Positions 45,806-64,000 of a stretch of DNA of 64,000 bases are shown here, in pieces; position 1 is the stretch's first letter, and each line of letters starts with the position of its first letter. The notes beneath the pieces were generated by a model. It made no database searches. It was given only the letters and a program-made list of their open reading frames with translations, and had not been told where the DNA came from. The translations under genes and the position numbers were made by a program. Source of the stretch: Gossypium raimondii (taxonomy: Eukaryota; Streptophyta; Magnoliopsida; Malvales; Malvaceae); NCBI RefSeq assembly GCF_025698545.1, contig NC_068566.1:45611192-45675191 (forward strand), in the 5' to 3' direction.

Positions 45806-46451
45806 AATAATAAAGCTTGTTTTCTTTTAATTAAATCATCAAGTTAGTGATATGCCATAAATTGATCTGTCAAATTAGACATTGTTTATCTCTTAATGAA
45901 CTTGTTTTCAAGTGTTTTTAGTGTATTTTTAGTACTTTTACGTAATTTTAATTTTTACAAGTAGATTTACGAAATCGCCTTTTTTTTTCCTCATTTTTCG
46001 ATCCAAAATAACCAATTGTACCATTGAAGAACTTAATGGTTGATTGAATGTTGTAAGAAAGCAGTTAACTATCAAACACAACGAGTTATGCGCAATTTAG
46101 CTTGTTGGACATTTTTTAATGATGTAGACTAAAAAATTAATGATTGGGAAATCTTTGGATAACCTCCTCAATAACTTTAGAATTTAGTATAAATACACAC
46201 AAGTACTCCATAATATGAGAGTCTCTTTTTCATCTTGGTTCTAGACTCTTTCATACCCTTTCTCTACTGGCATATATAGGGGAATCTAGAAATCTTTTTA
46301 GTGAGGATTAGAATTGAATTATAAATTTTAAGAGGTCAAAATATAATTTTATTAATTTGATTATTTTTATTTCAACATTTTGAAAGGATAACTCATTTTA
46401 TAGAGCTTACAAATATTCAAATATATCTTACCTTTTTACTAAGTATATCTT

Positions 46452-47069
46452 TGTTAGAACATTTTCAAATATTTATAGTATTCCAATAACTATAAATGAA
46501 TGGGTGTAATTAATCAAAAGTTATATTATTTGATTTTTGAAAAGAATTATAACTATTTAAATAATATTATTTGAATAGTTATAATATTAAATGAATAATT
46601 ATGTGTTTATTTTAAAGACATTATTATTCAGAAAGACACCTGTTGATGAAAGATGTCTCTATGAAGAGACATGAAAATTCCTATAAATAGGAATGTGATT
46701 TCATTTGGAAAACACACCAACAAATTATAATATTCTTTCTCTCCATCCTTCATTTTCTAATATTATTAGATTATTTTATAAAGTATTACTACATAAATCC
46801 TTTATAGAAATTGAGTTTCTTGTCATACGTTGCTCAGTGTGTAGTGGGCTATTCTCGTCAATGCAAAACGCAAATAGTCATTGGCTTCATTGTATCATCG
46901 AGGTTAATTTGCTTGGAACTTATTTGCACACTGAAAATAGGTGGGGGCGAATATAACCTTAAAGATAGTGACTTGATATACCCCTTGGAGCCTTGTCCTA
47001 TTTCTTCTTTTTCTATTCGAGTTTCGTTCATGTGTTTGAGATTTTCTTCACCGGAGATTTGTACTAGCA
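46452..47069 (+). repeat. Left LTR of the copia element
   Basis: 618 bp, TGTTAGAAC...TACTAGCA; contains a TATAAATAGGAA core-promoter-like box near 46682. Confidence 0.9.
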
Positions 47070-50000
47070 GTTTTAAGGTTATATAATTCATGATGACTAC
47101 CACAACACATGAAAGTGGAACACTAAGGGAGTTGGCTTCCAACTTTGTCAAACTTGATCGATTTGATGGTGGCAATTTTCGACGATGCTAGAAAAAGATG
47201 CACTTCTTATTATCAGCTTTGAAGATTTCTTATGTTTTGGATACTCTAAGACTTGAAGAGAATGATAATGAATCTGTTGCTGCAACCCGAGAAAGAAAAA
47301 ATGGGACAATGCTGATTACATGTGCATGAGCCACATATTGAATGGTTTATCTGATGGTTTGTTCGACACCTACCAAAACGAGGTCACCGCTAAAGAATTA
47401 TGAGACAAATTGGAGACAAGATACATGACTAAAGATGTTACAAGTAAGAAATTTCTTGTCAGTCATTTCAATAATTATCAAATGGTTGATGGTCGTTCTG
47501 TTATGGAACAATTCCGTGATATTGAAAAGATGTTGAATCAATTCAAGCAATATGATATGAAAATGGATGAAATGATTGTTGTATTCTCCATAATAGACAA
47601 ACTTCTTCCATCTTGGAAAGACTTTAAAAGAAGTCTAAAACATAAGAAAGAGGAAATATCTCTTGAGGCTTTGGCAAATCATCTTCGTATTGAAGAAGAA
47701 TATCGAAAACAAGATCTGAACCTAAATTTTGAAAATGCCAAAGTGCATGTTACGGAGGAAGTACAAACTACTAAAACATTCAAGAGAAAGTTCAAACAGA
47801 CTGATAAAGCACCTAAGTTCAAAAAAAAGGGGCTCATGCTATCATTGTGGAAAGTCGGGACATTTCAAGAATGAATGTCGATTTTTAAAGAATAAATCAT
47901 CTTCTAAGGCTGATAATAACGAAAAGTTCATTGCAATGATATCTGAAATTAATATGGCACAAGATGATAATACATGGTGGATTGATACCGGAGCAACCAA
48001 ACATGTGTGCAAAGATAAAAGCATGTTCACAAAGTTCACACAATGTGAAAATGACAATGTCTTGTACATGGGAAATTCTTCCATCGTAGCAATCAAAGGC
48101 AAAGGGTCTGTTGAACTACAATTCACTTCTGGAAAGGTTTTAACCTTAAATAATGTATATTATGTACCAGAAGTTAAGAAGAATTTAGTGTCTGGGAGTC
48201 TGTTGAATAAGTTTGGTTTCAAACTTGTTTTTGAGGCATATAAGTTTATTTTGTCTAAGGGAGGAATTTTTGTGGGGAAAGGGTATATGTATGAGAGTAT
48301 GTTCAAACTCAATATCATTAATAAGAATAAAAATACTATTTATGCTTATATGGTTGAATCTTTTTGTTTGTAGCATTATAGATTAGGTCATTTGAATTAT
48401 AGAAAATTGAATGACATGTATGAGTTAGATTTAATTCCTATTTTTAATAATAATATTGAAAATGCAATACATGTATGTTGACTAAAATTACAAGAAACCC
48501 TTTCCCTAAGGTTAAAAGGAAAACAAAATTGCTTGATTTGATACATAGTGATTTATGTGACATGCATAATACTCTTACATTAGGTGGAAAGAAATATTTT
48601 GTTACTTCTATTAATGATTGTTCTAGATATTGTTATGTATATTTATTGCATTCAAAAGATGAAGCGTTTGATAAATTTAAAGTTTATAAATATGAAGTTG
48701 AACTTCATGTGAATCATTTATCAAGTGCTTAAGATTGGATAGAGGTGGAGAATATTATAATCCAAGTTATTTTGAATCCATTGAAATTATCCATTAAGTT
48801 TCAACCCCTTACACACCATAACAAAATGGTGTAGCTAAAAAGAAAAATAGAGTCTTGATGAAATGGTAAATTCAATATTATCATATTCAGGTCTTGGACA
48901 AGGTTTTTGGGGAGAAACTGTTCTAACAACTTGTCATATATTGAATAGAGTTCCTAATAAGGAAACTAAAATAACCCCCTATGAACAATGGAAGAAAAGG
49001 CAACCAAACCTTAATTATTTGAAGGTTTGGGGTTGTAGAGCTATTGTCAAAATTTTAACACCTAAACGTAAAAAGTTAGGTGAAAGAGGAATTGAATGCA
49101 TATTTATAGGTTATGCACATAATAGCAAGGCATATAGGTTCATGGTAATTGAACCAAATGATTCAATTTCAATTAATACTGTTATTGAATCAAGAGATGC
49201 TATTTTTGATGAAAATAGATTTAATTTTATATCAAGACAATTACAACCACAACAATTGATTCATTCTTCAAATGAGAATGAGATTTCATTGGAAAAAATT
49301 GATAATAATGATGAATCTTGTCAAGAATTAAGAAGTTAGATGATTAAAAAGGTCAAAGATTTTGGACCAAATTTCATTATGTTTCTTGTAGAAGGAAAAT
49401 GTGAAAGTCTTGTTGTTATAATATGAAATCTTATCCTATTGCATTTGAAGAGGCAATGAAATCTCAAGACTCTGCTTTTTGGAAAGAAGCAATAAATGAT
49501 GAGATGGATTCAATAATGGGAAATCAAACTTAGATCTTAGTTGATCTTTCACCAGGTTCCAAACCAATAGGTTGTAAATGGATCTTCAAAAAGAAAATGA
49601 AGGTTCATGACACCATTGATAAATTTAAAGCAAGGTTGGTAACCAAATGTTTTACACAAAAACAATGTATTGATTACTTTGATACCTATTCTCCAGTAGC
49701 ACGAATTGCTACAATTAGACTCTTAATATCACTTACCTCTATATATAATTTGGTTGTTCACCAAATGGATGTTAAAACTGCATTTTTAAATGGTGAATTG
49801 GAAGAGGAAGTGTACATGGAGCAACCAGAAGGATTTGTTGTTCCAGGACAAGAGCATAAGGTATGTAAGCTTGTTAAATCTTTATATGAACTTAAACAAG
49901 AACCAAAACAATGGCACCTAAAGTTTGACAAGATTGTTTTAGCTAATGGCTATAAAATAAATGAATCTGATAAGTGCATATATAGAAAATTTGAAAAATG

Positions 50001-51522
50001 GAAAATGTGTCATAATTTGCTTATATGTAGATGACATGCTCATTTTTGGCACGAATTAGGAACAAATAGAAAACACAAGGAAATTCTTGTCAAACAACTT
50101 TGCTATGCAGGATATGGGTGTAGCAGATGTTATTCTTGGGATTAGAATAACTCGAGATGGAAGCACTATAGCTTTATCACAATCACGTTACATTGAAAAT
50201 GTGTTTAAAAAGTTTGATCTTTTCAACTGTATACCAGCATCTACACCCATGGATCCTTAAATAAAATTAGTATCTAATGCTGGTAGGAAAATTGATCAAT
50301 TGAAATATACAAGTCTAATTGGTTGTCTTATGTACATAATGACTTGTACAAGACCAGATATTGCATATGCTGTTGGAAAATTGAGTAGGTACACAAGTAA
50401 TCCAAGTAGTTTGCATTGGCAAGCTTTGAATAAAGTCCTTAGGTACTTAAAGAAAACTATTAACTATGGATTGTGTTATAATAGATATCTTCTAGTTTTA
50501 GAAGGGTATTCGGATGCTAGTTGGATTAGAAGTTTGGAAGATCATGCATCTACTAGTGGATGGATCTTCAATCTTGGTGGATGAGCCATTTCTTGGGGTT
50601 CCAAGAAACAAACATGTATTATTGATTCCACCATGGCAGCGGAATTTATTGCATTAGCCGTTGCATCTAAAGAAGCAAAATGGTTAAGAAATTTGCTTTA
50701 TGATGTACCTTTATGGCCTAAGCCAATTTTACCTATTTCTATCCGTTGTGATAGTGAGGTTACTCTAGCAAAGGCATATAGCCAAGTATATAATGGAAAG
50801 TCTAGACACATTGGATTAAGACATAGTTATGTCCGACAATTAATCTTTGATGGAGTGATCACTATTATGTGAGGTCAAGTGAAAATTTGGCGGATCCTTT
50901 GACAAAAAGTCTTACTAGAGATGCAGTAAAAAAGGACCTCAAAAGGGATGAGACTCAAGCTCATTAATTAGAGTCACCTATGTTGGAAACTCGACTCAAC
51001 GCTTGATATAACGTCAAGTCTTCCATTCAATAAGACAAAGTACATCATTAGTATGTGACTGTTAGCACTATAAATAAATCCATCCTAAGATTAAAGTGCT
51101 AGGTATCCGTAATAATAAGGGAATGATGAATAATGTACTTTTAATGGACCCATAACATAAATATGTTACAGTGTTATAATTACGGGAACACTCTTGATGG
51201 GATCTATCTATGTGAGTGGAAGTGTGGCCGCTTCTAGGAGCTCAAGGGCTTAGCTATGATTCCACTCATGAAAAGAGGACATAGACACATGACCATAATA
51301 GTGCCCCTAGATACTATGCATTGACAGGTGTTGAAATCATTATGTGAGATGTGTTCGGTCAATCAAATGGAATAGTTGGTTCAAAGCTTAGTCTACCATG
51401 CAGTTTCGATTAACTTTAACATGCTTTCGCTAAGTGAAGGTTCAATCGTAAGATACCTTCATTTATGCAAATTGATTTCCAATAATATCAAAATCCAAAA
51501 TATTTTGAAAATGGGGGGAGAT

Positions 51523-52140
51523 TGTTGGAACATTGTCAAATATTTATAGTGTTCCAATAACTATAAATGAATGGGTGTAATTAATCAAAAGTTATATTAT
51601 TTGATTTTTTGAAAAAGAATTATAACTATTTAAATAATATTATTTGAATAGTTATAATATTAAATGAATAATTATGTGTTTATTTTTAAGATATTATTAT
51701 TCAGAAAGACACCTATTGATGAAAGATGTCTATATGAAGAGATGAAAATTCCTATAAATAGGAACGTGATTTCATTTGGAAAACACACCAAAAAATTCTA
51801 ATATTCTTTCTTTCATTCCTTCATTTTCTAATATTATTAGATTATGTTATAAAGTATTACTGCAGAAATCCTTTATAGAAATTGAGTTTTTTGTCATATA
51901 TTGCTCAGTGTGTAGTGGGCTATTCTCGTCAGTGCAAAACGCAAATAGTCATCGGCTTCATTGTATCCTCGAGGTTAATTTGCTTGGAATTTATTTGCAC
52001 ACCGAAAATAGGTGAAGGCAAATATAACCTTAAAGATAGTGACTTGATACACGCTTTGGAGCCTTGTCCTATTTCTTCTTTTTCTGTTCGAGTTTCGTTC
52101 GTGTGTTCGAGATTTTTTTCACTGGAAATTTGTACTAACA
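51523..52140 (+). repeat. Right LTR of the copia element
   Basis: 618 bp, TGTTGGAAC...TACTAACA; preceded directly by the purine-rich tract and followed by the ATCTT duplication. Confidence 0.9.
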
Positions 52141-52568
52141 ATCTTTTGGTCTGATCCATAAACATTTACCTAATATATGTAAATCAATGTTTTTGGAACT
52201 GGATCGGTGGTTAAATTAGTTAAACTATCAATTCTCAAATTGATCAGTTAAAATAGAATGAATTATTAAAAAATACATAAAAAAAGTTTAAATATTATAA
52301 AATCCTGTTCAAAATATTCGTACTGATTTACGAATCAATTTATTTTTCATTATGTATAGGTTGATTTTCGATCTAATTCAGAAATAATTATAAACAACCT
52401 ACATATTAATATTTATATTATTAAACTATATTTAATAATATTACTAATTGTAATATAATTGAATTGATTTTTAATCTCGAATACAAAGATGAAACATATA
52501 AAAAAAATAAGAATCACATTTCACCATTTTCATCCTTCTCTGTTTCTCAGTCTCCAGCCAAAAGGAGT

Positions 52569-53786
52569 ATGTCAAAAAGAGGCAGGTATGATCTGGACTC
52601 CATCCCCCAAGACCCACCATACCTGCAACCAGGTGCCCTGGTTGAGATTCAACCCCCCGAATTCGGTTACGAGAGTCCGTGGCACACCGCCACTATCGTC
52701 CAGCGCGCTACTCCAATATCCTCCAACAGGTTCGTGGTCCGATTCACCCATCTTTTCCAGGACCAAAAAACCGGGAATAGACCCTTAAGGATGATCAGCC
52801 TCGGCGATATACGCCCTCATCCCCCTCCACAGCGTCCAAGAAAGTTCGAGAATGGTGACCACGCGGACGCTTATCACAACAACAGCTGGTGGGACGGGGA
52901 GATTGTTCAAGAGTTGATGAATGGCAACTATCTTTTTAGGTTTACAAGTGATTATCAGTGGCCAAAGTACGTAGAGTTTGAAGTGAATCAATTGAGGCTT
53001 CATAGAACCTGGTTTCATGGGCATTGGATACCGCCATTGGAGGCATCTGAGATAGCTGTGGACGTATATAAACTCTATTTGCCTATTTCTTGTCTTTGAT
53101 TCTTTTCATCTATCTTTTGTGTATGAGCTTTCTTGGATCTTGAGTATATGCAGTTCTTGTTCCTTTGGGGGTTTTTTCCTCTAATATATGCTTGGTTCTT
53201 GGCATATAGGAAGTACAAAGGGAAGAAGAGCCAACAAAGAAAACGCTGGAGATGGAAGAGTATAATGAGAGAGCACTTGTTGAGGTGGCCAATGATGAAG
53301 ATGGTCCTAACCGTGCTTGGTATGCTGCAATCATTGTTACACCAGTGGGGAATAAAAGGTACCTCATTCAGTATACGACCATGAGAACCGACGATAACAG
53401 TGGTTTCTTTGGGAAAGTTATGGATACCTTGCACATTAGGCCTCGTCCACCTGATATTGAGGTGCCTGATCAATTTGTAATGCTTGATCAAGTTGATGCT
53501 TTCTACAAAGGTGGGTGGTGGAAAGGTGTGATAATTAAGGTCCTTTCTGATGATTCTAAATATCATGTCTATTTGGCTACACATGAAGAAATGGAATTTA
53601 AACACTCGGAATTAAGGCTACACCAAGATTGGATTGATGGAAAATGGACTAAACCTTCCCCAGGTCTGCATCTCTAAACCCTTTTGTGTATATATATATA
53701 TCAGTAGGTATGTGTTCTTCAATGAAGTTCATGTATGAGTTTTTTAACTGGTTTCTGGTTCATCATTTTTTGCTGCAGTGATATGA
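52569..53786 (+). CDS. Agenet (Tudor-like) protein A, 3 exons, 318 aa
   Basis: Exons 52569-53063, 53210-53663 and 53779-53786 join in frame. Each large exon codes for one tandem Agenet pair: about 20-84 (PGALVEIQPPEFG, WHTATI) with 93-147 (GDHADAYHNNSWWDG), and about 184-250 (ALVEVANDEDG, WYAAII) with 262-316 (DQVDAFYKGGWWKGV). Agenet pairs read methylated histone tails or bind RNA in plants; known relatives include AGDP1/ADCP1 and DUF724 proteins. Exon 3 codes only V-I-stop; without that splice the frame would end at 53677. The leader word TCTCCAGCCAAAAGGAG just before the ATG is shared with copies B, C and D. A copia element lies about 430 bp upstream. Confidence 0.85.
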
Positions 53787-54183
53787 AGCATGTGCATGAT
53801 CATAAACATAGTCAAGCTTGGAGCGTTTCTAAATATGGCATCTTTTCTCTCTCTCTCTCTTTTTTTCAGATACAATCTTTCTCTGTTTTAACTTTGAAAG
53901 AATTCAGTAACTCTTGTTTTTCTGGTTTTTCTGTACTTCATATTATATCATTGTTGCCTGCTTAAAATTGATTTTGATGTCCTTGTATTGTTGTTGAATT
54001 ACGGTTAAAAGCATTTTAGCTTTCATAGTTTAGTTCCGACTATAGTTGCTATTATTTTATTTCCATCAAATTAATAATTTTCAATGTTTACCCTTAACCT
54101 TATTTACAAAATAGGATGGTAAACGTAACACCCCATATTCGACTCGAACATTAGGTCAAAGCATCGAGATGTTACATTCTTTA

Positions 54184-55380
54184 CTACACTATTTACTTAT
54201 CAAATATTTTTTTATAAATTTTTATAACTTTTCAATTTAGTCCCTTTTTGTCATAAAAGTTCATTATTCACTAATTAATCATATTAAATTAGTTTTCTTT
54301 CTTCTTACACATTAACCACATAATTTATCTCAATATCTTGTTTGAATATCAAATTTCTATGTATTTCATTTCTATTATTTCATCTACATATTTTCTCAAG
54401 TTTAACAATTTAGTCATTGTCATCATAAAATTTCATATTTTCCACAATTTCACTTTTACAATACTTTATGCATATTTCATTCTCTCATAACACATTCATT
54501 AAGCTTTAATCATAATTACCATATTCACATATTAAATTGTTTCACACTTAAACTTTTGCATAATTTTCAATTTAGTCCCTATTACTATGTAATTTATTTT
54601 TCACCATATAAGCACTTTAATCAAATAGTTCATTATAATATCTTATTTCACATGACAAATTTTCATGCATATCACTTCTCTTATTTTAATTATAAATTTC
54701 ACAAATTTTACAATTTACCTTAATATCATGAAGATTCATTATTTACTATAATTTCACCTTAACATCACTTTGTAATCAATTCACTACTTCTTTTAAATAA
54801 GTCTCAAATGTATGTTTATTTCATTGAAAAACTTTTATAAAATATTTTCAGGAAAATATTTTACGCAGATTCATTCAAACACCGTAAAATATTAGCTTTT
54901 CCGAAAAGTAAATCGTTTCTAGAAATCATTTTCCGTAATCCATTTTCAATGAAACAAACGGAGCCTTATATTAATTATAAAAATTTGATTGTATTAGTTG
55001 TTAGGATTTGGTATCCTAAGTGTAGTATATTTATCATTCCACACTAGTAATTTTTGAATCAAATGGTTTAAAAAAAATTCATTACTCATTAATATCATTT
55101 GTATTTGCCCTTAACGATTCTTGCATGCAAAACAAAACATAAGCAAATATTAACTTTTTGATTATCTAATGTTTAATTAATATTAAGTTGCATTATATGA
55201 TTGGATCATAATGCGATAAGACAACTTATATTAGTATATAATCTAAACAGTCCGTAGTTTAATCGAAATTGAGCAAATTGATTGAAAAACTATTATGATG
55301 TCTATGAAGTCCAATTGGAGAGATACATTGTCTTAGGTATCGAAGCAAATGACTCTTATAAGATCGAGACATAGATGTGA
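54184..55380. other. Left part of the spacer between the inverted arms
   Basis: AT-rich, no gene. It starts beside a GTAACACCCCATATTCG word typical of LTR-like ends in this region and includes a small MITE at 54814-54959. Confidence 0.5.
54814..54959. mobile_element. Small MITE (about 146 bp)
   Basis: GTTTATTTCATTGAAAA at the left and TTTTCAATGAAACAAAC at the right are inverted repeats; further inner palindromic words such as AAAATATTTT and TTTTCCGAAAAG occur. The outer boundary may be a few bases wider. Superfamily not assigned. Confidence 0.55.
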
Positions 55381-55587
55381 TTGTCTACACTAACAGTACA
55401 TTGTCTTGGTGAAAACGCTGCCAATGAAGATTTATCTGTGGAAAGGTTGATCCCCAAAAAGGTTCGATTTAGAGATAAAGATGAGACTACGGATAGCAAT
55501 AAGTTGATCGATCCATCCACTGAACAACCAATCTCATGGAGAGATAATCTTGTAGGGCATCTTTCGAAGACTGATTTTAATGGCTTA
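55381..55587 (+). mobile_element. LINE ORF1-like fragment
   Basis: A short open frame contains PKKVRFRDKDE and DPSTEQPISWRDNLVG, words I associate with the N-terminal region of plant L1 ORF1 proteins. It is cut at 55588 by a hAT MITE; beyond the MITE the frame GDFNAILSP near 56090-56120 recalls an endonuclease fragment. No complete element is present. Confidence 0.4.
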
Positions 55588-56072
55588 TAGGGGTGAGCAA
55601 AATCCGATTTGATTCAAAAACCTTGATAAAAATTCAAATTTTGAATTAAATAATTTGAGTCATTTGAGTTAATTAAGTTATTCGGATAAACTCGAATAAA
55701 AAATTAAGTTTTTCAGCTTAACTCGAATATGAATTACACAATTCGAGTTATTCGAAGATCTGAATAAGAAAAGGCAAATTACGTCATTTTGATAAATGTT
55801 TACTCATTAAGTTAAAAGGCAAAACCATTATATTGTTTATGTAGTTAAATAATTTTGTACTTTGTCTATTAGTTAAATAATCAGTCCATATAAACGCAAC
55901 ATTGAGTATAAATAATAGGATTCGTTAACTCAACTCGAAATTTTTTGACTCGATTCGATTCGATTAAAAAAATTTCGGATTGGGTTTGGTTGCTAAAATA
56001 GGATTCGTCAACTCGACTAACTCAAATTTTTTTTACTCGATTCGACTCGAATCGATCGAATACTCACCCCTA
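55588..56072. mobile_element. hAT-type MITE (485 bp) with 8-bp target duplication
   Basis: Ends are TAGGGGTGAGC and ACTCACCCCTA, flanked by ATGGCTTA on both sides (55580-55587, 56073-56080), the 8-bp duplication expected of hAT elements. The interior is rich in TTCGAGTT/AACTCGAA words and non-coding. It lies in the spacer between the inverted arms. Confidence 0.85.
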
Positions 56073-56500
56073 ATGGCTTATAATGGTGATTTCAATGCTA
56101 TTTTGTCACCGTTGAACAACATGCAATTCGTTTTGAGTTATTTCTAGCTAGTAGAGTGATTGATTGGACATATATAATTAATGTTTAAATATTTTACAAT
56201 TAAGTGTCGGCTCTTCACCTATTAAATACAACATTATTTAATCATTAAGTCATTCCACTATAATACCATGACTGAACTCTCCTTATTATATATCATTTTG
56301 TCCAATGATCTTGTTATAATTGTGTTACTCTCATATATCCTTAATCTCTTTGGGATAAATTTCATTCTTCCGATATGATCATATTTTATCTAATTGTATT
56401 TATTACATCTTTCGATATAAAAAGATAAATACTATGTGTTAGTAGTAATTGTCTTTTTATATAGAAAAGTTATGAAAGTTTATAAAAAATATTTGATAAA
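56073..56500. other. Right part of the spacer between the inverted arms
   Basis: No gene; AT-rich. Only the short GDFNAILSP-like frame just after the hAT MITE is notable. Confidence 0.4.
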
Positions 56501-56813
56501 TAAAGAATGTAATATCTCAGTGCTTTGACTTGATATTCAGGTCGGGTATGAGGTGTTAATGTTTACCATCCTATTTTGTAAATAAGGTTAAGGGTAAACA
56601 TTGAAAATTATTAATTTGATGGAAATAAAATAATAGCAACTATAGTCAGAACTAAACTAGCTAAAATGCTTTTAACCATAATTCAACAACAACATAAGGA
56701 CATCAAAATCAATTTTAAGCTGGCAACAATGATGTAATATGAAGTACCGAAGAACCAGAAAAACAAGAGGTACTGAATTCTTTCAAAGTTAAAATAGAGA
56801 AAGATTGTATCTT

Positions 56814-56820
<7 letters not shown>

Positions 56821-56844
<24 letters not shown>

Positions 56845-56845
56845 A
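56821..56845. repeat. (GA)n microsatellite in the gene B 3' region
   Basis: About 12 GA units. The matching place in arm A (53839-53853) has a shorter CT run. Confidence 0.9.
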
Positions 56846-56903
56846 AAGATGCCATAGTAAGAAACGCTCCAAGCTTGACTATGTTTATGATCATGCACAT
56901 GCT

Positions 56904-58121
56904 TCATATCACTGCAGCAAAAAATGATGAACCAGAAACCAGTTAAGAAACTTATACATGAACTTCATTGAAGAACACATATCTACTGATATATATATAT
57001 ATATACGAAAGGGTTTAGAGATGCACACCTGGGGAAGGTTTAGTCCATTTTCCATCAATCCAATCTTGGTGTAGCCTTAATTCCGAGTGTTTAAATTCCA
57101 TTTCTTCATGTGTAGCCAAATAGACATGATATTTAGAATCATCAGAAAGGACCTTAATTATCACACCTTTCCACCACCCACCTTTGTAGAAAGCATCAAC
57201 TTGATCAAGCATTACAAATTGGTCAGGCACCTCAATATCAGGTGGACGAGGCCTAATGTGCAAGGTATCCATAACTTTCCCAAAGAAACCACTGTTATCG
57301 TCGGTTCTCATGGTCGTATACTGAATAAGGTACCTTTTATTCCCCACTGGTGTAACAATAATTGCAGCATACCAAGCACGGTTAGGACCATCTTCATCAT
57401 TGGCCACCTCAACAAGTGCTCTCTCATTATACTCTTCCATCTCCATCGTTTTCTTTGTTGGCTCTTCTTCCCTTTGTACTTCCTATATGCCAAGAACCAA
57501 GCATATATTAGAGGAAAAACCCCAAAGAAACAAGAACTGCATATACTCAAGATCCAAGAAAGCTCATACACAAAAGATAGATGAAAAGAATCAAAGACAA
57601 GAAATAGGCAAATAGAGTTTATATACCTCCACAGCTATCTCAGATGCCTCCAATGGCGGTATCCAATGCCCATTAAACCAGGTTCTATGAAGCCTCAATT
57701 TATTCACTCCAAACTCTACGAACTTAGGCCACTGATTATCACTGTTAAACCTAAAAAGATAGTTGCCATTCTTCAACTCTTGAACAATAACCCCGTCCCA
57801 CCAGCCGTTGTTGTGATAAGCGTCCGCGTGGTCACCATTCTTGAACTTTCTTGGACGTTGTGGAGGGGGGTGAGGGCGTATATCGCCGAGGTTGAACATC
57901 CTTAAGGGTCTATTCCCGGTTTTTTCGTCTTGGAAAAGATGGGTGAATCGGACCACGAACCTGTTGGAGTGTATTGGAGTAGCGCGCTGGGCGATAGTGG
58001 CGATGTGCCAAGGACCCTCGTAACCAAATTCGGGGGGTTGAATCTCAACCAGGGCACCTGGTTGCAGGTATGGTGGGTCTTGGGGGATAGAGTCCAGATC
58101 ATACTTGCTTCTTTTTGACAT
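56904..58121 (-). CDS. Agenet (Tudor-like) protein B, 3 exons, 318 aa
   Basis: Exons 58121-57627, 57482-57029 and 56911-56904 join in frame and have exactly the same lengths as gene A (495, 454, 8). The protein has the same two Agenet pairs. Against A, exon 1 differs at about 20 of 165 residues, while exon 2 differs at one residue (Leu to Met near residue 180) and about three bases. Without the last splice the frame would end at 57015. The gene lies on the opposite arm of the inverted repeat, pointing toward gene A across a 2.3-kb spacer (tail to tail). The upstream region lacks the copia element, so its promoter may differ in activity from that of A (inference). Confidence 0.85.
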
Positions 58122-58930
58122 ACTCCTTTTGGCTAGAGACAGAGAAGCAGAGGAGGATGAAACTGGTGAAATGTGATTCTGATTCTGAGTCTTAGTTTTT
58201 TATAATTTTCATCTAGATTAAAAATCAATTCAATTATATTATAGTTAATAATATTTTTAAATATAGTTTAATAATATAAATATTAATATGTAGGTTGTTT
58301 ATAATAAGGAAAAATAAATTGATTCGTAAATTGGTGCGAATTGATTCAACATGATTTTGTAATATTTAAAGTTTTTTAATCTATTTTTAATAATTCATTC
58401 TATTTGAACTGGTCAAATCGAGAATTGATAGTCTAAGCAATTTAACCACCGATCCAGTTTCAAAACATTAATTTACATATATTAAGTAATTGTTTATGGA
58501 TCGGACCAAAAGATATACTTGGTAAAAAGGTAAGACATATTTGAATATTTTAAGCTCTTTCAAGATAAAATGAGTTATTCTTTCAAAAGTGTTAGAAATA
58601 AAAAATTAATAAAATTATATTTTGACCTCTTAAAATTTATAATTCAATTCCAATCTTCACTAAAAGATTTCTAAATTCTCGTTTATATGCTAGTAGAGAA
58701 AGGGTATGAAAGAGTCTAGAACCAAGATGAAAGAGAGACTCTCGTATTATGGAGTACTTGTGTTTGATAGTTAACTGCTTTCCTACAACACTTAATCAAC
58801 CATTAGGTTTTTCAATGAGGAAAAAGAAGCAATTTCATAAATCTACTTGTAAAAATTAAAATTAACACATCAATTTATGGCAGATCACTAACTTGATGAT
58901 TTGATTAAAAAGAAAACAAGCTTTATTATT

Positions 58931-60625: not shown

Positions 60626-61782
60626 ATGTCACAAAAAGGGAAATGCGGCATCGGCGTCAACGCCGAAGGCCCACCACACCTGCAACCAGGTTCCACAGTT
60701 GAGATTAAACCCCCCGAATTTGGTTACCAGGGTGCATGGTACACCGCCACTATCATCCAGCGCAATACTCCAATACCCTCCAGGAGGTTCATGGTCCAAT
60801 TCACCCATCTTTTCCAAGACCAAAAAACCGGGGAAAGACCCTTAAGGATGTTCAGCGTCAGCCATATACGCCCTCAGCTCCCTCCACTACGTCCAAGAAA
60901 GTTCAAGCAAGGTGAAGACGCGGACGCTTATCACAAGTACGGCTGGTGGGAAGGGGTGATTCTTCAAGAGTGGAATAATGACAACTATCTTTTTATGTTT
61001 CACAGTGATAATCAGTCGCCAAAGTACGTAGTGTTTGGAGTGAATCAATTGAGGCTTCATAGAACCTGGTTTAATGGGTATTGGGTACCGCCAGTGCAGG
61101 AATCTGAGCTAGCTGTGGAGGTATAAACTCAATTTGGGTATTTCTTGTCTCTTGATTCTTTCCGTCCTGAATCTTGAGTATATGCAATATTCTTGTTTCT
61201 TTGGGGTCTCTCCTTTAATATTTATGTTTGGTTCTTGGCATATAGGAAGTACAAAGGGAAGAAGAGTATAATGAGGGAGACCTTGTTGAGGTGCGCAATG
61301 ATGAAGATGGTTCTAACCGTTCTTGGTTTGCCGCAATTATTGCTAAACCAGTGGGGAATAAAAGGTACCTCATTCAGTATGTGACCTTGGAAACCGAAGA
61401 TAACACTGATTTCTTAGAGAAAGAAGTGGATACCTCGCACATTAGGCCTCGTCCACCGGATATTGTGGTGCCTGATCAGTTTGTAATGCTTGATCAAGTT
61501 GATGCTTTCTACAAAGGTGGATGGTGGAAAGGTGTGATTATTAAGGTCCTTTCTGGTGATTCTAAATATCATGTCTATTTGGCTACACGTGAAGAAATGG
61601 AATTTAAACACGATGAATTAAGGCTACACCAAGACTGGATTGATGGAAAATGGACTAAACCTTCCCCAGGTGTGTGCATCTCTAAACCCTTCTGTATATC
61701 AGTAGATAAGTGTTCTTCAGTGATATTCATGTACAAGTTTTTAACTGATGTCCGATTCATACTTTTTGCTGCAGTGATATGA
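60626..61782 (+). CDS. Agenet (Tudor-like) protein C, 3 exons, 308 aa
   Basis: Exons 60626-61120, 61246-61669 and 61775-61782 join in frame. It has the same two Agenet pairs as A and B (STVEIKPPEFGYQGAW, DADAYHKYGWWEGV, then DLVEVRNDEDG, DAFYKGGWWKGV). Exon 2 is 30 bp shorter because ten residues (EPTKKTLEME region of A) are absent at a repeated GAAGAG. Exon 3 again codes V-I-stop. Intron 2 is 105 bp, a multiple of three, and open in frame, so a retained intron would give 343 residues with the same stop. It is more diverged from A and B than they are from each other. The leader CTCCAGCCAAAAGGAG is conserved. Confidence 0.85.
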
Positions 61783-63811: not shown

Positions 63812-64000
63812 ATGTCACAAAAAGGGAAGTACACCATCGGCCTCGGCATCGAAGACCCACCACACCTGCAACCAGGTTCTAGAGTTGAGATTAAACCACG
63901 TGGATTTGGTTACCGGGGTGCATGGTTCTCCGCCATTATCATCAAGCGCGACACTCCAATATACTCTAACCATTTTGTGGTCAAATTCACCGATCTTTAC
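63812..64000 (+). CDS. Agenet (Tudor-like) protein D, partial (5' end only)
   Basis: The ATG at 63812 follows the same leader word (TCTCCAGCCAAAAGGAG) as copies A-C. The 63 codons present give MSQKGKYTIGLGIEDPPHLQ followed by PGSRVEIKPRGFGYRGAWFS, clearly the first Agenet unit and closest to copy C at its start. The frame is open to the window edge. Upstream DNA from about 63590 (GTAAACAACCTAAATATTAAT) also resembles the upstream DNA of A and B, so this is a fourth tandem copy of gene plus flank. Whether it is complete cannot be seen. Confidence 0.8.
   Translation, partial: MSQKGKYTIGLGIEDPPHLQPGSRVEIKPRGFGYRGAWFSAIIIKRDTPIYSNHFVVKFTDLY

Follow-up and report, generated by a model that had tools for sequence, protein, structure and literature searches.

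Two neighbouring Agenet genes, named A and B, lie in opposite orientations in the window, a 64,000-nucleotide stretch of Gossypium raimondii DNA (NC_068566.1, positions 45,611,192 to 45,675,191), and share a tract of low divergence that is best explained, and to our judgement probably was produced, by non-allelic gene conversion between the two arms of an inverted duplication. As read from the aligned copies, the tract is real, its edges are fuzzy, and the probable conversion is overlaid on strong positive selection acting on exon 1. The first-pass annotation of the region had proposed arm-to-arm conversion on the grounds that selection on the protein does not by itself explain a near-identical intron. 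The silent sites uphold this argument, yet positive selection causes part of the exon 1 contrast, so that the difference between exon 1 and exon 2 would have two causes and not one.

All comparisons were made between paralogues within one genome assembly. The segment 52569-53966 carrying gene A was aligned to the reverse complement of 56715-58121, as were the wider arms to one another. The two genes are built alike: 165 codons in exon 1 and 155 in exon 2, parted by a short intron. Exon 1 differs at 30 of 495 bases and, exactly as first estimated, at 20 of 165 residues; intron 1 (53064-53209 against 57626-57483) carries the single substitution (in 144 bases) and the small indel, of 2 bp, that had been seen by eye. 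The near-identity of exon 2 holds as well, with a recount of 5 differences in 468 bases (2 of 155 residues) in place of about 3 in 454, and the 3' flank does diverge again, at 7.8% (28/361) and not at the 5% or so given earlier. Seven of 183 bases differ in the 3' untranslated region (UTR; 53678-53860) and 49 of 391 in the 5' flank. When only silent sites are counted, the differences amount to 34/413 in the outer flank, 49/386 in the 5' flank, 8/103 in exon 1, 1/144 in intron 1, 3/94 in exon 2, 7/186 in the UTR and 27/358 in the 3' flank. Even divergence along the alignment, or equal synonymous divergence in the two exons, had been named as what would tell against conversion. The silent rates are heterogeneous across these seven segments (chi2 30.6, p = 3e-5), and intron 1 plus exon 2 (4/238) are less diverged at silent sites than exon 1 (p = 0.009); conversion survives both checks. 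The same 4/238, a silent divergence of 1.7%, compares with 8.6% (125/1446) in the other arm sequence (p = 3e-5) and with 34/544 in the 3' UTR and 3' flank (p = 0.006). CpG mutation was considered as the source of the flank divergence and rejected, CpG-type transitions being too few: they make up 3 of 34 differences in the outer flank, 4 of 49 in the 5' flank, 3 of 30 in exon 1, 0 of 6 in the tract and 5 of 34 on the 3' side. In the 5' flank, a patch at 52480-52509 shows 14 differences between the arms in 30 bases, perhaps a local misalignment or a replacement.

An interval scan over silent sites finds the best low interval at A 52970-54120, with 22 differences in 699 sites, which is matched in 0 of 2000 permutations and reaches beyond the block proposed at first pass. 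The low-divergence block described at first pass is thus present, without the sharp start it was given at the exon 1/intron 1 border: its left edge falls somewhere between 52965 and 53063. The 3'-most A/B difference of exon 1 is at 52964 for silent changes, and those at 53016 and 53063 are the last of any kind. A partition under the Bayesian information criterion (BIC) places breaks at 52990 and 54121 when all sites are used, and returns a single block, 52510-54121, from the silent sites at the BIC penalty and at a penalty of 5.0. An onset at the exon border remains compatible with these positions. On the 3' side there is no sharp end, silent divergence climbing stepwise from 1.7% through 3.8% to 7.5%, and the homogenised core looks about 0.7 kb long, and at most about 1.1 kb.

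The trough persists when each segment is allowed its own rate. In a likelihood test on genes A to D, the segments were given separate rates while the branch proportions were held equal, with the paralogues C and D absorbing the segment rates. Between exon 1 and intron 1 plus exon 2, proportional branches are rejected (twice the log-likelihood difference, 2dlnL, 8.71; p = 0.003): in intron 1 plus exon 2, the tips leading to A and B stand at 0.26 of expectation, about 4-fold too short. Exon 2 alone gives p = 0.005, the 3' UTR shows no departure (p = 0.83), and with a single outgroup the test yields p = 0.0013 (C) and 0.032 (D). Measured against C, silent rates stay even from one end of the gene to the other: for A-C and B-C, respectively, synonymous divergence (dS) is 0.10 and 0.09 in exon 1 and 0.12 and 0.13 in exon 2, and divergence is 0.11 and 0.10 in the intron and 0.13 and 0.125 in the UTR. 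GENECONV-type run tests were carried out as in-house permutation versions at polymorphic sites; the mismatch-tolerant form, applied to all sites, recovers a run at A 53017-53636 with 5 mismatches in 92 polymorphic sites, at borderline significance (p = 0.028 or 0.051, depending on the penalty). The tract bears two marks of conversion, a neutral divergence lower than that of its flanks and a trough deeper than segment rate or constraint accounts for. We infer conversion as the cause of this trough.

The placement of A and B on opposite arms of an inverted repeat is borne out by the alignment of A 52141-54239 to B 58514-56458 across a 2.2-kb spacer. The likeness to large palindromes that was also suggested is not, the arms being about 2.1 kb long (2.5-2.7 kb counting the part beyond a retrotransposon) and differing, outside the tract, at 8.6% of their silent sites; the locus is a small inverted duplication inside a cluster of eight genes. 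Arm A is split by a long terminal repeat (LTR) retrotransposon, whose LTR pair has 38 substitutions in 613 positions (6.2%). Past this element homology to B returns, at 46197-46452 against 58763-58509 and in patches out to 45806, and B is uninterrupted across the insertion site (empty site); the duplication is therefore older than the insertion. Divergence falls from 8.6% in the arms outside the tract through 6.2% between the LTRs to 1.7% in the tract, and if neutral rates are similar this places the duplication first, then the insertion and last the conversion. Were LTRs to mutate faster, the insertion would be younger, but it would take a rate difference above about 3.6-fold to bring it below the age of the tract. 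Judging from divergence only, conversion would thus have come after the retrotransposon. In the scenario that we propose, an inverted duplication in a plant Agenet cluster would have given rise to A and B, the arms would have diverged, and the retrotransposon would have landed in arm A. Non-allelic gene conversion would then have copied a stretch from arm to arm, taking in the 3' end of exon 1 together with intron 1 and exon 2, and perhaps some of the 3' UTR, and resetting the silent divergence of the tract to about 1.7%. Independently, the protein contrast would have been widened by positive selection, which acts on exon 1 throughout the cluster.

Features of the A/B inverted duplication and its surroundings (window coordinates)
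Feature	Position	Strand	Remarks
Low-divergence tract core, arm A	52990..53665		left edge somewhere in 52965-53063; fades out on the right, reaching 54121 at most
Arm A, gene-side part	52141..54239	+	
Arm A, outer part past retrotransposon	45806..46451	+	patchy homology to B 58509-58930
Arm B	56458..58930	-	no retrotransposon; empty site near 58509-58514
Spacer	54240..56457		not common to both arms; small internal repeats
LTR retrotransposon splitting arm A	46452..52140		LTRs 46452-47069 and 51523-52140; 5-bp target duplication ATCTT
Gene A exon 1	52569..53063	+	encodes first Agenet pair in 165 codons; evolves fast and lies outside the probably converted core
Gene A intron 1	53064..53209	+	inside low-divergence tract
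Gene A exon 2	53210..53677	+	155 codons and stop, second Agenet pair; inside tract
Gene B exon 1	57627..58121	-	
Gene B intron 1	57483..57626	-	inside tract
Gene B exon 2	57015..57482	-	inside tract
Gene C, control paralogue	60626..61782	+	exon 1 60626-61120, exon 2 61246-61782
Gene D exon 1 start, control paralogue	63812..64000	+	continues beyond window end

Exon 1, which encodes the first Agenet pair, is under positive selection across the eight related genes of the cluster, A to H. In pairwise Nei-Gojobori (NG86) comparisons, replacement divergence (dN) exceeds dS in exon 1, with a dN/dS ratio (omega) of 2.0 for A-C, 2.1 for B-C and 1.7 for C-D (one-sided p = 0.026, 0.028 and 0.050, respectively, and 0.38 for A-D), and omega ranges from 0.61 to 2.07 across all 28 A-H pairs. 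The A-B pair itself has an omega of 0.71 for exon 1 and of 0.17 for exon 2. Codon models were fitted to exon 1 of the eight genes over 152 gap-free codon columns: under M0, omega is 1.61, above 1 (2dlnL 11.1), and M2a, which assigns an omega of 3.1 to 38% of codons, is favoured over M1a (2dlnL 32.3). The likelihood code, written in-house, was checked by null simulation alone; of 60 runs planned, 55 were completed, and each used a single M2a start (two or three for the observed fits). The largest exon 1 statistics in these runs were 1.3 for an M0 omega above 1 and 6.7 for M2a, and the observed M2a-over-M1a value was reached in 0 of the 55. Exchange between paralogues can inflate M2a, to which the whole-exon omega is less exposed. 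Exon 2 was modelled over 134 columns in seven genes (E, without exon 2, was left out), and its omega of 1.13, or 0.88 for A-D, differs from 1 in neither case; M2a is favoured here too (2dlnL 11.3 and 12.9), with some sites, a minority, above 1. Positive selection on exon 1 thus makes up part of the protein contrast between the exons. At other Agenet loci, 13 Agenet-like open reading frames (ORFs) at 7 loci provided only three pairs above the threshold of 55% identity over 90 residues. All three come from one cluster on contig C13; their omega values of 0.65, 0.89 and 0.07 are in no case above 1, and they are too few for calling the A-H cluster special.

Several results weigh against conversion. 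On silent sites, a partition break between exon 1 and the block (52964/52965) appears only at a lenient penalty of 3.84. Within the gene body, the contrast of the tract with exon 1 silent sites and the 3' UTR is moderate (p = 0.035); a table of strict silent sites compares 2/7 with 3/25 (p = 0.30), and the counts are small. Intron 1 alone fits proportional branches (p = 0.20). The run check suggested at first pass failed, exact runs for A-B giving p = 0.54 on all sites and 0.78 on silent sites, and the mismatch-tolerant version restricted to silent sites p = 0.91 and 0.79; such tests are weak for a sister pair converted and then newly mutated, but the failed result stands. Against D, silent rates are uneven, with an exon 1 dS of 0.24 (A-D) and 0.23 (B-D) versus 0.07-0.12 in intron 1, exon 2 and the UTR: the D lineage may have a raised silent rate in exon 1, or the remainder may have been exchanged, and the D-only likelihood test is the weaker for it. 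The weakness of the silent-only tests inside the gene body and the seemingly higher exon 1 silent rates against D would both suit a history free of conversion, in which exon 1 changes its amino acids fast while constraint or a low mutation rate holds back intron 1 and exon 2, as would the exon 1 omega of 1.6 over A-H and the greater divergence of exon 1 than of exon 2 in six of six pairs among A-D. We regard that history as unlikely, since the silent rates of A and B against C are even from exon 1 to the UTR, intron 1 is not frozen between A and C (13/120), the silent trough is distinct from the 3' UTR and flank (p = 0.006), and proportional branches are rejected once segment rates are corrected for.

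Neighbouring near-identical inverted repeats can suffer miscorrection, and the trough might be an assembly or polishing artefact in which the reads of one arm corrected the other over their most similar stretch. This is very improbable, given that six substitutions and the indel remain in intron 1 and exon 2, spread over the block. At three of these six substitutions and at the indel B is identical to C and D, and at a fourth it matches D, C being gapped, as expected from real later changes in A and not from a pasted copy. Nor is it at all probable that one arm acquired its divergent exon 1 and 5' flank from a third paralogue, although the cluster does show another apparent exchange, in the 3' UTR. 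The 30 exon 1 differences are scattered and, strict and weak assignments pooled, split into 14 apparently derived in A, 10 apparently derived in B, 5 conflicting and 1 matching neither; sites grouping A with B apart from C and D number 34, versus 4 for the two alternative groupings; and the 5' flanks of A and B align to C or D with chance-like identity.

Conversion between A and B thus remains the preferred explanation of the tract. Polarising the changes inside it was tried as a guide to the direction of conversion and given up, the changes being later mutations and not donor marks: with 53063 included, five substitutions and the indel look A-derived (one of them weakly), one looks B-derived (weakly) and one is conflicting. 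The seemingly A-derived substitutions at 53063, 53162, 53246, 53332 and 53666 are all to C, possibly by chance. Exchange in the cluster probably extends beyond A and B, as suggested by the distribution of lone-differing sites, which number 51 for D and 19 for C in exon 1 and 1 for D and 11 for C in the 3' UTR (p = 4e-5), and by an identical run between B and D at 53666-53737 (p_global 0.0008 on all sites; 0.037 for its silent version, 53684-53737). In the 3' UTR, D is anomalously near A and B, yet exon 1 puts A and B nearer C.

Each exon can be aligned to the solved tandem Agenet cassettes (PDB 5zwx and 5zwz), and both A/B exons are in this respect like AGDP1-type tandem Agenet readers of histone H3 dimethylated at lysine 9 (H3K9me2), whose contacts were taken from the available part of the AGDP1 study (PMC6208443). 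Cage residues were read off the alignment to RsAGDP1 AGD12 (5zwx). In the first pair of genes A to H, Tyr122 is replaced or kept as H, H, H, H, Y, F, Y and C, Trp127 as W, W, W, W, F, Y, Y and Y, Phe144 as F, F, F, F, L, M, I and M, and Glu149, which adjoins an alignment gap, as K, K, K, K, K, M, R and M. The full AGDP1 aromatic cage of Tyr122, Trp127 and Phe144 with Glu149 is absent from the first pair of A, which has H, W, F and K. Unlike AGDP1 as described in that part of the source, the first pair here keeps the cage only partially, and Glu149 is E in 0 of 8 genes. The corresponding positions in the second pair of A are Y, W, L and E, as compared by eye from the printed sequences. When the 12 mapped contacts are taken with one residue on either side, covering 33 of the 152 sites, the posterior for selected sites is higher (p = 0.004), and likewise at radii of 2 (p = 0.017) and 3 (p = 0.016), four radii having been tried; at the 12 contacts themselves it is not significantly higher (p = 0.08). 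Among the 15 sites with a posterior above 0.9, seven lie within one residue of a contact and one at a contact. A clustering of selected exon 1 sites around the histone-peptide groove is thus suggestive only. One can also picture, more doubtfully, a two-speed chromatin-reader array in which the exon 1 pair would be engaged in an arms race altering the histone-peptide groove and the second pair would be shared by conversion, with selection purging tracts that enter exon 1, so that the tract would stop near the exon border.

Conversion between neighbouring duplicates is well known, and the A/B tract is one more, ordinary case, with a built-in clock in its duplication, retrotransposon insertion and conversion. 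Conversion between arms is familiar from the large palindromes of sex chromosomes; here, too, inverted arms would exchange sequence, but the A and B arms are short, mostly 8.6% diverged at silent sites and homogenised in the core only. The published systems below are compared as far as the available parts of the cited papers describe them. Three human gene pairs show concerted evolution limited to a segment, by non-allelic conversion (PMC2720389). They resemble A and B in that an intron-containing segment is over-similar, so that protein constraint alone is insufficient, and differ in having been homogenised over 100 million years, whereas one or few events suffice here, where only paralogues are compared. 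Among plant NLR (nucleotide-binding, leucine-rich repeat) duplicates, RPP8 combines intergenic conversion with selection (PMC6771003): in both cases plant paralogues swap sequence while selection maintains differences, although here the genes are of the Agenet family, the repeats inverted and not direct, and the data paralogues of one genome as against a population sample.

Less expected, and more interesting, is that omega exceeds 1 across the entire first Agenet pair in what is presumed to be a family of chromatin readers. A precedent for replacement exceeding silent change is found in Eucalyptus camaldulensis, where one Agenet gene is tabled at a replacement-to-silent ratio (Ka/Ks) of 1.9 (PMC3472208); that value reflects counts of 3 and 0 among single-nucleotide polymorphisms within the species, in contrast to the tandem cluster and site-model tests used here. 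In the wheat DUF724 genes, Ka/Ks is below 1 throughout (PMC10531524, in its available part). Among the literature matches listed, whose coverage excludes most subscription journals, no comparable fast-evolving or converting Agenet cluster was found, and the matches for cotton (Gossypium), and for conversion between duplicates that are inverted or in plants, contain nothing on the A-H cluster. Should the residues under selection line the histone groove, what such a reader races against could be tested in this cluster.

A search for the Agenet family across the 750.8-Mb genome, in which the window sits on contig 2, returned 42 matches. Protein A scores 118.2 bits against PF05641 (Agenet; curated cut-off 27) in three stretches. 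Gene models were predicted from open frames and splice consensus. Genes A to C are contained in the window, D runs past its end and E to H lie beyond. Gene E (window coordinates 67207-68141) lacks most of exon 2 and has one Agenet pair left; its match to H skips from H 77380 to H 77826. On another contig, at C13:908500-911500, ORFs share 87-89% protein identity with the exons of gene F, and this copy is perhaps a relocated member of the cluster.

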